From: Candidatus Cottocaccamicrobium excrementipullorum
GTDB lineage: Bacteria; Bacillota; Clostridia; Lachnospirales; Lachnospiraceae
Assembly: GCA_018713255.1 (NCBI GenBank)
Contig: DVFL01000032.1
Coordinates: 1 to 38,240, forward strand
Direction of reading: 5' to 3'
Length of the DNA: 38,240 nt
Of the stretch, positions 5,596 to 12,680 are shown in pieces; the first letter of the stretch is position 1; the number at the start of each line of letters is the position of its first letter. The notes under the pieces are model-generated. The model was given only the letters and a program-made list of their open reading frames with translations. It was not told the DNA's origin and did no database searches. Both the position numbers and the translations under genes were made by a program.

Positions 5596-6120
5596 TTACT
5601 GTTCTACTACTCCAATATATGGCAGATTCCTGTACTTCTGATCATAATCCAGGCCGTACCCTACCACAAATTCATCAGGAATGGTAAAACATGTATACTT
5701 AACCTGCACCTGTTTCTTTACCCGCCGCTCCGGCTTGTCCAGCAGCGTGCACAGCTCAATGCTCTTTGGATTTCTCTGCTTTAAGATCTCCATCAAATAA
5801 GCCAGGGTTCTGCCGGAATCAATAATATCTTCTACGATAATTACTTCCTTTCCGGCAAGGGGCTCATCTAAGTCCTTAATGATCTTTACAATTCCTGAAG
5901 ATTCCGTGCCGCCTCCATAGCTGGAAACTGACATAAAATCCAGAGATACCGGAACCGTCAGCCGTTTAGCCAGCTCGCAGGTAAAGAAAACGCCGCCCTT
6001 CAGAATACAAATCAAATGCACCTGTCTGCCTGCGTAATCCCGGTTGATTTCCCCTGCGATCTCGCTGATTCTCGCATTCACTTCTTCTTCCGTCAGCAAC
6101 ACCCGAATCTTATCTGCCAT
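5596..6120 (-). CDS. hpt: Hypoxanthine phosphoribosyltransferase
   Basis: This is a 174-residue purine salvage enzyme that converts hypoxanthine (and usually guanine) plus PRPP to the nucleotide. The PRPP-binding signature VIIVEDIIDSGRTL lies in the middle of the protein, and a C-terminal 'PDEFVVGYGLDYDQKYRNLPYIG' segment is typical of Hpt. The start overlaps the tilS stop by 11 nt, with GGAGGAGAAGAAA before the ATG, so translation is probably coupled. The tilS-hpt-ftsH order is conserved in many Firmicutes. Confidence 0.96.
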   Translation of the reverse strand: MADKIRVLLTEEEVNARISEIAGEINRDYAGRQVHLICILKGGVFFTCELAKRLTVPVSLDFMSVSSYGGGTESSGIVKIIKDLDEPLAGKEVIIVEDIIDSGRTLAYLMEILKQRNPKSIELCTLLDKPERRVKKQVQVKYTCFTIPDEFVVGYGLDYDQKYRNLPYIGVVEQ

Positions 6121-7573: not shown

Positions 7574-9061
7574 TTAAGACTTTTCCCAGATTCCTGCCGC
7601 CAAAACCGTCATGTCATCTCTGGCTCCCCCTGAAGACAAGGCAAAATTTAATACCTGGTCCGCTATTTCCTGAGGGCCAGAAGGAGGAAGGGCTTCTAAA
7701 AATTCCTTAAGAGTTTTTTCCTTGTCCTCTCCCCACAGCCCGTCCAGCACCCCGTCGCTTACCATCACGATTCGATCGTCATCCCAAAGCTTTTTGGACA
7801 GCAGCGCCGGCTCCACTGGGTTTAGAATCCCCATGGGCACATCGCCGGCGTCTAAAAGCTCCACGCCATCCCGCCCTATGACAAAGGAAGCAGCAGCTCC
7901 CAGCTTCATCACTTCCAAAACGCCGGTGTTCAAGTCCACGCATAAAAGATCCACCGCCGCCGGATGCTGTTCTGCTCCTGCAAGCAAAAGCACTGTATTC
8001 ACCAGTTTTAAAGAGGAACGGGCCGTAAAGCCGGCTTCCATCAGCTGTTCCGTCAAATCCACAATTTTCCCGCTTTCCCGGCTGGCCTGCCTCCCCGTTC
8101 CCATGCCGTCCGCAAGACTCATAATCACCTGGCCTTCCACATTTTTAAACAATACATAATTGTCTCCAGATACCTTTTCCCCTTGTCTCGGCGTCCTTGC
8201 CGCACCATAAAGCATCTGATACTTGCCTTCTTCCGTGAACCGCAAAGTTCCCAGCTGTCTGGTGACAATGGCTCGGCTGTCCCTGGCCGGATACCATTTT
8301 CTCCCTCCCATAGCATGTCCCAGCACCGCCGCCGCTTCCTTGGACGTAAGACAAGCGCCATGGGTAGTCCGCACAGTGAGATACGCCTCTCTCTGCTTAT
8401 TTTCATATTCTAAAACCAGCATCTTTTCCACCAGCATATGATGCTTTTTAAACGCCCGCTTTACCGCCTCCTCCTTCTCTGCCGTCACATCCAAAGCCTG
8501 TTCCATTTGATGGGAGAACTCCTCAATAATGGACGCCAGTTCCCGAAACTGAACCACCACCGCATCCCGGCTTTCCAAAAAACGATTTTTCCAGGAAAGA
8601 TTCATGGTCGCTCGTCCCAGACTGCTGTTTAATTGATTCAGATATTTTTCTTTATGAAAACAGGTCTGACGAAATAAAAGAGGCATATCCTCCATTCGCA
8701 CCGCTCCATGAACTTCAAAAGCCCTTAAAAGATAATATAGATAGTAGCTGTCCTCCCTGGCGCTGTCCTGATAGAGATTACACCGGCTGCAGCTGCCGCA
8801 TACCATTGCCGCCGCCGTCTGCATGGCTGCCGCCCCATCCTCTCTGCTTAAATGCCGTCCATCAATCTCTTCCGTAAAAGACTTTGCCAGGCGGCTCAAT
8901 GAAGCAGCCAGATCCGCCAGTCTAGCTGCCGTATATCCCGTTGCGTCCGCCATATCCAGACGCTTTTCTTTCCGCTTGAAAAAAAACAAAAAAATCCCTC
9001 CCCTTCGCATATCCTCTTTCGAATACTCAAAAAGATTATATGCGAAGAAGAGAGAAATCAT
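7574..9061 (-). CDS. spoIIE: SpoIIE-type PP2C serine phosphatase lacking the membrane domain
   Basis: In Bacillus SpoIIE dephosphorylates SpoIIAA to switch on sigma-F in the forespore. This protein has the linker region with the Cys motif CGSCSRC (around residue 90) followed by the PP2C domain: SGDNYVLF, SLADGMGTG, VMVSDGVLDGLWG and GGARDDMTVLAAG. It is 495 residues and shows no transmembrane helix, whereas B. subtilis SpoIIE is about 830 residues with ten helices before this region. The start ATG forms TAATG with the divIC stop and has GGAGGG 6 nt upstream, so the short form is not a start-site artefact. Recruitment to the septum would have to occur without the usual anchor. Confidence 0.88.
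   Translation of the reverse strand: MISLFFAYNLFEYSKEDMRRGGIFLFFFKRKEKRLDMADATGYTAARLADLAASLSRLAKSFTEEIDGRHLSREDGAAAMQTAAAMVCGSCSRCNLYQDSAREDSYYLYYLLRAFEVHGAVRMEDMPLLFRQTCFHKEKYLNQLNSSLGRATMNLSWKNRFLESRDAVVVQFRELASIIEEFSHQMEQALDVTAEKEEAVKRAFKKHHMLVEKMLVLEYENKQREAYLTVRTTHGACLTSKEAAAVLGHAMGGRKWYPARDSRAIVTRQLGTLRFTEEGKYQMLYGAARTPRQGEKVSGDNYVLFKNVEGQVIMSLADGMGTGRQASRESGKIVDLTEQLMEAGFTARSSLKLVNTVLLLAGAEQHPAAVDLLCVDLNTGVLEVMKLGAAASFVIGRDGVELLDAGDVPMGILNPVEPALLSKKLWDDDRIVMVSDGVLDGLWGEDKEKTLKEFLEALPPSGPQEIADQVLNFALSSGGARDDMTVLAAGIWEKS
9003..9047 (-). repeat. 10-bp inverted repeat at the 5' end of spoIIE
   Basis: CTTCGCATAT (9003-9012) and ATATGCGAAG (9038-9047) are perfect complements separated by 25 nt. 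In the mRNA the 3' arm contains the in-frame second ATG of spoIIE (9010), and its GAGG lies directly beside the stem. The 5' arm contains most of a TATAAT block (9040-9035). It could limit use of the internal start or be a coincidence of coding sequence. Confidence 0.5.
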
Positions 9062-9393
9062 TACTCGCCCTCCGAAGGTTTCAAAAGGATCTCGTCAGGC
9101 ATAACAAGTCCCAGTTTCTCCTTTGCCACCTCTTCAATATACTGCTTCGTCTGAACGTAAATCTTGCGCTCTTCAAGGTCCTTCGTCCTCTGCTCCTCTT
9201 CATCTTTCTGAGCCTGAAGATTCTCCTCCCGAATCTGGTATTCCAGATCTTTTGCCTTTAAAGACGCGCTTTTTAAATTTACCACAACTGCCAGGCTGAG
9301 CACCACCACTGTAATTCCGATCAAGGTCATCCGGTTCCCCCATTTGTCCCGTCTGTGCATCCGGGACTGTCTCCTCCTGGGCTTCATTTTCAT
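9061..9393 (-). CDS. divIC: DivIC/FtsB-family septum formation protein
   Basis: This is a small bitopic division protein of about 110 residues. A basic cytoplasmic N-terminus is followed by one transmembrane helix ('MTLIGITVVVLSLAVVV', near residues 22-38), then a charged coiled coil ('KDLEYQIREENLQAQKDEEEQRTKDLEERK') and the conserved C-terminal 'YIEEVAKEKLGLVMPDEI' of the FtsB/DivIC family. It would join FtsL and DivIB in the divisome. The start is uncertain: ATG 9393 has no clear ribosome site, while ATG 9360 has AGGAGGAG about 10 nt upstream and would give 99 residues. Either start lies well inside the out-of-frame 3' end of yabQ. The stop overlaps the spoIIE start. Confidence 0.88.
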   Translation of the reverse strand: MKMKPRRRQSRMHRRDKWGNRMTLIGITVVVLSLAVVVNLKSASLKAKDLEYQIREENLQAQKDEEEQRTKDLEERKIYVQTKQYIEEVAKEKLGLVMPDEILLKPSEGE

Positions 9394-9778
9394 CACCACG
9401 CTTACTGTCTGCCCTACTGCGACTCCGTCTGTTCTTACGTTTATAATGCTTTATTTTAATACGGTTGAAAAATTTTTGCAATACTTTCATCATATTTCTG
9501 CTGACTATCCGGTCGTAAACTGCCATCCCTAAAAACACTGCAGTCACAGCAAATCCTCGAAGGACACCGTCATTCAGCCGAAACAAAAGGTCAAATACAG
9601 AAAAACAGACATACATCCAATAGATTAGATCCTCCAGCCCTACCAGCCACCTATTCCTTCCCAGAAAAAAACGGCTGATCCGAAGAATATCGTAGCAGAT
9701 CATCAGCCATATTCCAAGAAGAAAGGACTGACTCAAAAGTCTTGCCTGGCTGTAAACCTCTCCGCTTACTTCCATCAT
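9200..9778 (-). CDS. yabQ: Spore cortex biosynthesis protein YabQ
   Basis: This is an integral membrane protein needed for cortex assembly in Bacillus, made in the mother cell under sigma-E. The first ~110 residues contain hydrophobic segments with the family-like 'LLLGIWLMICYDILRISRFFL' type helix and 'WLVGLEDLIYWMYVCFSVFDLLF' (quoted approximately by segment). A basic stretch 'KIKHYKRKNRRSRSRAD' follows. The final ~65 residues are hydrophilic, low in conservation, and read through the divIC coding region in another frame, an overlap of roughly 160-190 bp. Either the tail is real and overlapping or a small frameshift has extended the gene. The start is 5 nt after yabP and has no strong ribosome site, implying coupling. 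Confidence 0.82.
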   Translation of the reverse strand: MMEVSGEVYSQARLLSQSFLLGIWLMICYDILRISRFFLGRNRWLVGLEDLIYWMYVCFSVFDLLFRLNDGVLRGFAVTAVFLGMAVYDRIVSRNMMKVLQKFFNRIKIKHYKRKNRRSRSRADSKRGDENEAQEETVPDAQTGQMGEPDDLDRNYSGGAQPGSCGKFKKRVFKGKRSGIPDSGGESSGSER

Positions 9779-9783
9779 TGTTT

Positions 9784-10068
9784 TTACTTGAACAGCCGGG
9801 CAAGGAAAGATTCCCCGCTTCTTCGGAAGGCTTCATTGGAACTGTAAACCAAGCTCTCCGCCTGTCCGTCAATATCGATCTCTCCTTTGTCCAGCGTAAG
9901 CCTGCTGACGCACAAATCCCGGCCCTTAATGGTCAGGAGACCTTTATCCGTATCCAGCACCACCTGGTTCTCATCAAAGGAAACCACATCTGCAATCCCT
10001 GTAATACTTAATTTTCCCCGGTCTTCCATCATCAGACGATGAGGACGTCCGCCTATTTTTTCTTCCAT
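9784..10068 (-). CDS. yabP: Sporulation protein YabP
   Basis: This is a 94-residue YabP/YqfC-family protein. In B. subtilis YabP is sigma-E dependent and required for spore cortex formation. The sequence shows the family pattern: 'HRLMMEDRGKLSITGIADVVSFDENQ', 'LDTDKGLLTIKGRDLCVSRLTLDKGEIDIDG' and a C-terminal 'YSSNEAFRRSGESFLARLF' segment (each contiguous in the protein). The ATG at 10068 is chosen because TTAGGAGG lies 7 nt upstream. That ribosome site is one arm of a 10-bp inverted repeat, and a sigma-E-like promoter lies just upstream. It is followed directly by yabQ. Confidence 0.93.
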   Translation of the reverse strand: MEEKIGGRPHRLMMEDRGKLSITGIADVVSFDENQVVLDTDKGLLTIKGRDLCVSRLTLDKGEIDIDGQAESLVYSSNEAFRRSGESFLARLFK

Positions 10069-10073
10069 CAAAA

Positions 10074-10119
10074 AACCTCCTAACACACTGAACTGTTTGA
10101 TTCAGTATATTAGGAGGTT
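10074..10119 (-). promoter_or_regulatory. Hairpin burying the yabP ribosome binding site
   Basis: AACCTCCTAA (10074-10083) and TTAGGAGGTT (10110-10119) are a perfect 10-bp inverted repeat. An inner 6-bp stem ACTGAA/TTCAGT (10087-10092 and 10101-10106) extends the fold. In minus-strand RNA coming from upstream, the yabP Shine-Dalgarno TTAGGAGGTT is entirely paired. A transcript starting at the sigma-E-like promoter, at about 10097, would lack the 5' arm and leave the site free. Confidence 0.72.
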
Positions 10120-10133
10120 GGGCAAAATATGAC
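10104..10133 (-). promoter_or_regulatory. Sigma-E-like promoter of yabP-yabQ
   Basis: On the minus strand GTCATATT (10133-10126), a 14-nt spacer and AATATACT (10111-10104) match the sigma-E pattern of ATA-centred -35 and CATAYAMT -10 at all but one -10 position. The spacing is the usual one. yabP and yabQ are sigma-E genes in B. subtilis, which supports this call. The predicted start is about 10097. Confidence 0.68.
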
Positions 10134-10184: not shown

Positions 10185-10424
10185 CTACAAGTACCGGTAA
10201 AGCTCTCTGGCCTCTTCTTTTTTCACCGTTTCCTGTACGTCAAGCACTTCCACCTTTACGGCTTTGGCGCCAAACTGTATTTCAATAATATCTCCCTCTT
10301 TTACATTGAGGGAAGCCTTCGCCGGCTTATCATTTACCAGCACCCGGCCGGCATCACAGGCCTCATTGGCCACCGTGCGCCGCTTAATCAGCCGGGAAAC
10401 TTTAAGAAACTTATCCAGTCTCAT
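10185..10424 (-). CDS. S4-domain RNA-binding protein (HslR/YabO type)
   Basis: This 79-residue protein is almost wholly an S4 RNA-binding domain: 'MRLDKFLKVSRLIKRRTVANEACDAGRVLVNDK' then 'KASLNVKEGDIIEIQFGAK' (contiguous in pieces). Its HslR/YabO relatives (recently named RqcP/RqcP2 in Bacillus) bind stalled 50S subunits during ribosome quality control, and this could be its role. The start follows the hup stop by only 3 nt with AAGGG abutting the ATG, so translation is probably coupled to hup. Its position between hup and yabP matches the B. subtilis order. Confidence 0.9.
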   Translation of the reverse strand: MRLDKFLKVSRLIKRRTVANEACDAGRVLVNDKPAKASLNVKEGDIIEIQFGAKAVKVEVLDVQETVKKEEARELYRYL

Positions 10425-10427
10425 CCC

Positions 10428-10703
10428 TTATGCATTCACCAGATCCTTTAACGCTTTTCCAGCTTTGAACTTAGGGCTCTTAGAAGCTGCAATCACCATA
10501 GGCTCGCCGCTCTTTGGATTTCTTCCCTCTCTCTCGCCTCTCTCAGAAACCTCAAAGGTTCCGAAACCTACCAGCTGTACCTTCTCACCCTTTACTAACT
10601 CCTCAGCAACCACATCGGTAAACGCCTTCAGCGCCTTCTCTGCATCCTTTCTGGAAATTTCTGCCTTCTCAGCAATCGCTGCAATTAATTCAGTTTTATT
10701 CAT
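10428..10703 (-). CDS. hup: HU-type nucleoid DNA-binding protein
   Basis: This is a 91-residue HU/IHF family protein that binds and bends DNA without strong sequence preference. 'MNKTELIAAIAEKAEISRKDAEKALKAF' forms the N-terminal helices. The DNA-binding arm shows 'GFGTFEVSERGEREGRNPKSGEPM', and 'KSPKFKAGKALKDLVN' closes the protein. CAGGAGGAATACG precedes the ATG. It is the first gene of the hup-S4-yabPQ run and has its own strong promoter overlapping the end of mazG. Confidence 0.96.
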   Translation of the reverse strand: MNKTELIAAIAEKAEISRKDAEKALKAFTDVVAEELVKGEKVQLVGFGTFEVSERGEREGRNPKSGEPMVIAASKSPKFKAGKALKDLVNA

Positions 10704-10788: not shown

Positions 10789-10817
10789 TTTATATCTGCT
10801 TCTGCCCTATTTGTCAA
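10789..10817 (-). promoter_or_regulatory. Strong sigma-A promoter of hup
   Basis: On the minus strand TTGACA (10817-10812), 17 nt and TATAAA (10794-10789) form a near-consensus promoter ~85 nt upstream of the hup start. The -35 overlaps the mazG stop codon. A strong promoter fits an abundant nucleoid protein. Confidence 0.82.
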
Positions 10818-12113: not shown

Positions 12114-12680
12114 TGCGCCTTCGCCGGCGCAAGCGCCGCCGGCGGCGGACTTAAGCTGACAAATACATTTCTCCAGCCATTCTATGGTCATCCTCTCCCG
12201 CATTACGCCATGTTCCAAAACCATATAATCCCCCAGCGCCGGATCACTGGCCTCAGGCAGGGCAGAATATTTTTCATATTCCTCAACCAGATGTGAAAGC
12301 CTTTCCTGATGAAGGCAGATTTGCTGCTGAAAAATCTCCTGCCTTTTTTCCGGTTCTAGAAAAGCGAGGAAATAGACTTTCAGCCGAAATACGTCCTTAG
12401 GCGCCGGCTCCAAATCTGTCTCCGCCTTAAGCCATCTCTTAAACTCCTGCTTTCCTTTATCCGTAAGGAAATAGCATTTCTTTTCCATTACTTCTCCCGT
12501 AATCTGGATGCTGAATTCCACCAGCCCTTCCTCTTCCAGCCGTTTTAATTCCGGATAAATCTGGCTGTGCTTTGCATACCAGAACTCATTTAACCGTTCG
12601 GAAAAAGTTTTTACGATATCATATCCAGTCATGGGCCGCTCCATTAACAGCCCTAAAATCACATATTTTAATGTGCGCAT
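12078..12680 (-). CDS. PadR family transcriptional regulator (AphA-like, with Vir_act_alpha_C)
   Basis: This is a winged-helix repressor of about 200 residues. The N-terminal PadR domain shows 'LKYVILGLLMERPMTGYDIVKTF', 'AKHSQIYPELKRLEEEGLVEF' and 'KKCYFLTDKGKQEFKRWL' (each contiguous). A C-terminal coiled-coil region of ~100 residues ('LAFLEPEKRQEIFQQQICLHQERLSHL') is the dimerization arm of the longer PadR class. The last ~25 residues are Ala/Gly-rich, encoded by a GC-rich inverted repeat region, and run antisense into the DUF554 gene. The ATG at 12680 follows AAGGGGATAAACGTT. It is a good candidate to bind the operator at 11359-11390. Confidence 0.88.
   Translation of the reverse strand: MRTLKYVILGLLMERPMTGYDIVKTFSERLNEFWYAKHSQIYPELKRLEEEGLVEFSIQITGEVMEKKCYFLTDKGKQEFKRWLKAETDLEPAPKDVFRLKVYFLAFLEPEKRQEIFQQQICLHQERLSHLVEEYEKYSALPEASDPALGDYMVLEHGVMRERMTIEWLEKCICQLKSAAGGACAGEGALEGKKFPDPGK

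Follow-up and report, generated by a model that had tools for sequence, protein, structure and literature searches.

An inverted repeat in front of yabP that may combine a terminator, a ribosome-site lock and a sigma-E-type promoter in Lachnospirales

The window analysed here is the whole 38,240-nucleotide stretch of contig DVFL01000032.1 from Candidatus Cottocaccamicrobium excrementipullorum (Lachnospiraceae). On its minus strand lie, in this order, mazG, hup, an S4-domain gene of the rqcP/yabO type (which we take to be rqcP), yabP, yabQ, divIC and spoIIE. The part from hup to yabQ contains the following features:

10789 to 10817, minus strand: sigma-A-type promoter 5' of hup, TTGACA-17-TATAAA (one match in the window, 0.02 expected)
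10428 to 10703, minus strand: hup (HU protein), a growth gene (Pfam PF00216, 2.7e-35)
10185 to 10424, minus strand: rqcP/yabO-like S4 growth gene (Pfam S4, 9.2e-13), directly before the element, last base 10185
10126 to 10132, minus strand: sigma-E-like -35, TCATATT (from sequence)
10104 to 10111, minus strand: sigma-E-like -10, AATATACT, within the hairpin 5' arm (from sequence)
10100 to 10119, minus strand: hairpin 5' arm (from folding), missing from the predicted sigma-E RNA
10094 to 10099, minus strand: hairpin loop (from folding), with the predicted sigma-E start at about 10097-10096, placed from the -10
10074 to 10093, minus strand: hairpin 3' arm (from sequence and folding), including the yabP Shine-Dalgarno (SD) sequence at 10083-10074
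10070 to 10075, minus strand: U6 tract at and after the stem foot and ahead of the start codon (from a terminator scan)
9784 to 10068, minus strand: yabP, the sporulation gene behind the element (TIGR02892, 2.3e-24, over its cut-off; Pfam PF07873, 1e-20), ATG at 10068-10066
9200 to 9778, minus strand: yabQ (Pfam PF09578), beginning five bases past the yabP stop, without a strong SD

The initial annotation had derived read-through RNA from a vegetative hup promoter, and the consensus-like site at 10817-10789 could supply such RNA and is its likely source. Since yabQ has no good SD of its own, its translation is possibly coupled to that of yabP. If divIC starts at 9381-9399, the yabQ frame and the beginning of divIC share well over 100 bases (9200-9399). 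A weak sigma-A-like site (9/12 matches) lies within yabQ at 9453-9481 and could provide divIC with a growth promoter of its own, a point of importance should read-through end at the hairpin.

Read on the minus strand, AACCTCCTAA (10119-10110) is perfectly complementary to TTAGGAGGTT (10083-10074), the yabP SD, as previously noted. The pairing had been described as 10 bp plus an inner stem of 6 bp; the pairing stands, but the two-part layout does not, for the arms form one uninterrupted 20-bp helix (10119-10100 with 10093-10074) closed by a 6-nt loop and containing three G-U and six G-C pairs. Over 81 nt the MFE is -34.5 kcal/mol against a shuffle mean of -14.6 (z -6.8), and 0 of 200 shuffles are as stable.

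Sigma-E promoters have a KMATATT-like -35 and a CATACAMT-like -10 about 14 nt apart. In the leader, TCATATT (10132-10126) is followed after 14 nt by AATATACT (10111-10104), which occupies the 5' arm just where the initial annotation had it, and transcription beginning 7 nt beyond it would start in the loop. Judged on sequence, the -10 match and its position fit an RNA start inside the hairpin, beyond the blocking arm. Computational folding of both RNAs, suggested with the initial annotation, gives a strong stem in the read-through RNA and an almost structure-free RNA from 10097, whose fold is weak (-3.5 kcal/mol, not more stable than that of shuffles) and leaves AGGAG unpaired in both MFE and centroid. 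The computed cost of opening the SD drops from 16.1 kcal/mol in the read-through RNA, a value matched by 0 of 100 upstream shuffles, to 2.3 in the predicted sigma-E RNA. In the computation, then, the SD of the long RNA is buried by the upstream arm, and the hairpin is absent from the short RNA, which lacks the arm it needs; folding in read-through RNA only had been claimed before, and the calculation agrees.

Is this arrangement kept in relatives? Leaders were collected from a genus sample (gene present in 11/11 genomes), from named genomes (54 yabP loci, mostly labelled Lachnospiraceae) and from a family sample (PF07873 in 135 of 200 genomes, from which 30 loci and 75 stretches were taken). 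Among the loci L001-L171, 24 had no parsed rqcP-yabP pair and 129 distinct leaders were left; 126, mostly from Lachnospiraceae, were scored, L002, L058 and L067 being omitted for a wrong or remote start. The omitted L002, a second yabP copy (1500-1900), shows no SD hairpin by eye. For each leader the opening cost was computed in the RNA from rqcP, in the RNA from the predicted sigma-E start and in read-through RNA shuffled upstream with the promoter kept. The mean cost is 10.4 kcal/mol for read-through RNA, 2.4 for sigma-E RNA and 4.35 for the shuffled RNA, and burial of the SD is significant in 88 of the 126 leaders at p<=.05 and in 77 at.01; the read-through cost exceeds the leader's own shuffle mean in 117/126. 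The genus contributes 10 distinct leaders, every one of them significant. A sporulating laboratory strain, Lacrimispora xylanisolvens DSM 3808 (L027), is among the carriers of such a leader. The identical test on other starts of the same loci stays near chance (rqcP 5/122, hup 2/54, yabQ 5/59). Relatedness of the genomes inflates these counts, which are not independent events; the same-genome controls answer this in part.

Further out, 43 leaders were obtained from 97 order and phylum loci (53 loci were unparsed, among them all 28 fetched first by the phylum search). SD burial is significant in 18 of the 38 of these 43 leaders used for the other families of the order, and a hairpin at the SD is seen by eye in 4/23 yabP leaders of the wider phylum outside the order. 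The sigma-E-type promoter was assessed in 115 of the 126 leaders, selected by motif: in this set the 14-nt spacing occurs in 95 leaders, and promoter scores exceed those of shuffles at p<=.05 in 102. A strict hairpin criterion is missed by 52 of the 126 leaders, so the element is not indispensable. Among the 74 hairpin-positive leaders, the SD centre pairs 4 nt ahead of the -10 in 38, and all upstream SD partners precede the earliest allowed sigma-E start in 74/74, a figure that is partly built in because the strict criterion already demands five partners before the predicted start.

The hairpin might simply be the intrinsic terminator of the hup-rqcP operon, lying so close to yabP that the SD falls in its 3' arm, with the sigma-E promoter restarting transcription. 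The terminator scan lists the window hairpin, with 20 pairs (6 G-C) followed by T6, although it finds 3 such sites in 3 kb against 3.1 expected, so that only the stem length is unusual here. Runs of at least four T between SD and start occur in 49/74 hairpin-positive yabP leaders and in 5/52 others, an association that argues for a terminator role, and by eye L058 and L206 have a sigma-E-like -10 within a terminator-shaped hairpin that leaves the SD uncovered. The combination of promoter with terminator hairpin and the burial of the SD are thus separable in relatives and joined in the window. A terminator and nothing else would, however, not explain why the SD is the centre of the pairing, with a constant spacing to the -10, nor why 25 of the 74 hairpin-positive leaders have no run of four T between SD and start (e.g., L069, L104 and L119, by eye); we regard this explanation as improbable. 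The hairpin probably has both roles, ending read-through and locking the SD. Of the initial interpretation, promoter-dependent masking of the SD is upheld computationally, but its silencing "without a terminator" has become doubtful in view of the U6 behind the window stem and the U-runs that track the hairpin.

The idea that hairpin-negative leaders carry a separate terminator instead was dropped, a separate upstream terminator being found in 1/52 of them and in 0/74 hairpin-positive leaders. Spacer length does not differ by hairpin status (medians 75 and 77).

The same build recurs at other sporulation genes. A function-blind scan covered 1.10 Mb of the 3.37-Mb genome plus the window and took in 3236 SD-bearing candidate starts, which yielded 175 SD hairpins after collapsing, ranked on sigma-E promoter score. 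Four matches score at least 18, namely yabP, cwlD, sipL and spoIIE; with the motif columns permuted, 200 trials average 0.11 such matches and never exceed 2. Two genes of the cotS family (16.8 and 15.9) lie between scores of 17.0 and 15.9, mixed with genes without a known sporulation role, and at a threshold of 15 the excess is no longer clear (reached by 18/200 permutations); only the top of the list is therefore safe. The scan replaced a bulge-free arm search of the genome, which gave 3 matches at its higher thresholds against a permutation maximum of 4, two of the 3 being the same yabP leader.

Of the genes found in the scan, sipL matches PF12673 (4.6e-49), cwlD matches PF01520 and, best, TIGR02883 slightly under that model's cut-off, and the cotS-family genes match TIGR02906, one above and one below the cut-off. 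They are preceded by a DivIVA-like gene (PF05103, 25.9 bits, cut-off 28), by a serine acetyltransferase-like gene (PF06426) and twice by proS-cca (PF09180, PF01743), and spoIIE is preceded by divIC. Two other leaders caught the eye: an IS200-like transposase (PF01797; L281, near base 12296, minus strand) has an SD hairpin in the scan, a type of protection familiar from these elements, and a 17-pair hairpin whose arms enclose TATACT covers the SD of a gene in which ferredoxin-like cysteine motifs are visible by eye (L306, near base 5749, minus strand).

Contig C20 of the same assembly (L276-L284) holds a second rqcP-yabP pair (L002), a second proS-cca-cotS and another cwlD. It repeats genes that are single elsewhere, and the cwlD of the scan, one cotS and the second yabP copy are on it. 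Its tetranucleotide use differs from that of three other large contigs by 0.098-0.134, those three differing from one another by 0.039-0.057, so it may be a contaminant or a foreign stretch; the smaller window contig deviates as well (0.084-0.113). The leaders on C20 are still leaders of some genome.

Burial of the SD was then scored in the 30 best-matching loci of each family search for sipL, cotS, cwlD and spoIVA, of which 1 sipL, 2 cotS and 5 cwlD loci were skipped. Among the usable ones it is significant in 15/29 for sipL and 16/28 for cotS, and weak for cwlD (8/25). The test gene picked beforehand was spoIVA, a sigma-E gene, and here 24 of the 30 best-matching loci are significant, with mean costs of 12.9 kcal/mol in read-through, 2.2 in predicted sigma-E and 4.5 in shuffled RNA. 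Alternatively, the hairpin might stabilise the 3' end of the growth-operon RNA or give rise to a small RNA, with no role for yabP. A stable hairpin at the end of an operon can indeed protect RNA, but this would account neither for recurrence at unrelated sporulation genes nor for the constant arrangement of hairpin, -10 and SD, and we think it very unlikely.

The spoIIE match is in the window itself:

8988 to 9055, minus strand: second element of similar build before spoIIE, with an 18-bp SD-covering stem (9055-9038 with 9012-8995), TATAAT at 9040-9035 and U7

Its TATAAT sits at the border of arm and loop. The hairpin reaches -38.7 kcal/mol (z -5.8), the start codon taken for spoIIE in the window (TTG 8989) being uncertain. 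In relatives 21/60 spoIIE leaders are significant, a noisy count with many starts mis-called, that of the window included. The spoIIE leaders L024, L030 and L039 have TTGACA or a near match and a TATAAT-like hexamer flanking the 5' arm, which we take to resemble a Spo0A-type promoter; the window leader shows only TATAAT, and the promoter type of this element is uncertain. SpoIIE (7574-9010) falls below the cut-off of TIGR02865 because the protein is short: its 478 aa as translated cover only positions 349-603 of the SpoIIE N-terminal model and the phosphatase, and the membrane-spanning part seems to be missing. Between 8800 and 11400 Rfam gives no match above the gathering score and three microRNA-model matches below it, at the spoIIE hairpin.

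Covariation was measured without folding in 95 non-redundant leaders of the 126, the -10 serving as anchor for the 5' block and the SD for the 3' block. Leaders paired with their own arms have a helix score of 7.64, against 5.65 (sd 0.14) after exchange of arms among leaders (z 14.4; 13.8 if the 5' block is restricted to the 14 nt upstream of the -10), and 51/95 have an ungapped helix score of at least 7. The pairing proposed from the one sequence is thereby conserved in relatives, in SD burial as in covarying arms; the initial annotation had named a lack of such conservation as grounds for refutation. The arms themselves are highly variable, e.g., CTCCCGGCATATACATT/AATGTGTATGCCGGGAG, CCCCCGC/GCGGGGG and ACAACCTTTC/GAAAGGTTGT. 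Within the stems, G-U outnumbers A-C by 31 to 12 for yabP (60/95 leaders), 13 to 1 for sipL (12/29), 17 to 1 for cotS (18/28) and 5 to 1 for cwlD (9/25), or 66 to 15 pooled (p 8.6e-9 against equality and 4.5e-6 against the ratio in exchanged arms, 10.9 to 8.3). As G-U pairs exist only in sense RNA, the target of selection seems to be a sense RNA with both arms, in other words the read-through RNA. That the arms, an inverted repeat around the -10, are a DNA palindrome bound by a mother-cell regulator is extremely improbable, given that their sequences vary widely with pairing kept and that the G-U excess, unexpected at a DNA site, disfavours an operator.

How, then, could a sporulation gene sit inside a growth operon without leak? 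In the model that we propose, RNA of the growth operon (mazG-hup-rqcP) carries both arms and would fold in the cell into the computed 20-bp hairpin. With its U6 the hairpin would probably end part of transcription before yabP, and in the RNA that passes through, the yabP SD, buried by computation, would keep yabP untranslated during growth; yabQ would perhaps be silenced too, through coupling to yabP. In the mother cell, sigma-E would start transcription in the loop at about 10097, as the promoter match predicts, giving an RNA without the 5' arm, in which by computation the hairpin is impossible and the SD free. The build would be reused behind housekeeping genes in the family at spoIVA, sipL, cotS-family genes and some cwlD, and at spoIIE with a promoter of uncertain type. 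We consider this three-in-one leader, reuse at other sporulation genes included, to be likely as a whole. With less assurance, we lean towards the view that Lachnospirales sporulation genes directly behind housekeeping genes commonly carry terminator, ribosome-site lock and sigma-E promoter as one element.

If the model is true, a single short inverted repeat, found at unrelated genes, couples promoter choice to translatability, the sigma factor deciding whether an RNA can be translated, and growth operons can acquire mother-cell genes without leak. It also gives a sequence rule for locating sporulation promoters in anaerobes without genetics, and it cautions that growth-phase RNA-seq coverage of such genes need not imply protein.

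Several known systems are related. In the transposase leaders of IS10, IS50 and IS200, RNA coming in from outside hides the SD, but these are mobile elements with no developmental sigma switch. Yeast LUTI mRNAs have an undecoded long and a decoded short isoform, through upstream ORFs and chromatin, and unlike the yabP leader involve no SD hairpin. The initial annotation knew of no description for yabP, and in the open-access literature (subscription papers lay outside the search) we found none, nor, besides sigG, any other sporulation gene of this build; the parts available of the C. difficile and C. phytofermentans start-site papers contain nothing on yabP. The principle of read-through silencing by a hairpin that contains a promoter is not new, having been described for T4 gene e and proposed for Bacillus subtilis sigG. 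According to the accessible parts of the source, long early RNAs of T4 gene e (lysozyme) bury the ribosome site in a hairpin, whereas RNAs from late promoters do not contain the 5' part and are translated well; related phages have a late promoter in the region encoding the 5' strand of the hairpin (PMC3014915). As in the yabP leader, the long RNA hides the ribosome site and the short one is without the blocking part; in contrast, timing and late sigma factor are those of a phage, and no terminator-like tail appears in those parts (PMC3014915). For sigG, the sections available relate the proposal that a hairpin of 20+ bp prevents translation of the read-through RNA, a hairpin that transcripts from sigG's own promoter are unable to form (PMC5942855, citing Masuda, 1988; Sun, 1991). 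Here too, as described there, a sporulation gene behind another operon has a read-through hairpin, but sigG is a forespore gene with a sporulation operon upstream and a sigma-F/G promoter, whereas the yabP-type elements stand at several mother-cell-type genes after growth operons, with a sigma-E-type promoter on the arm and a U-tract. Three things seem new: the principle serves mother-cell-type genes that follow growth operons, it occurs at several genes and in several families, and it is combined with a terminator-like tail.
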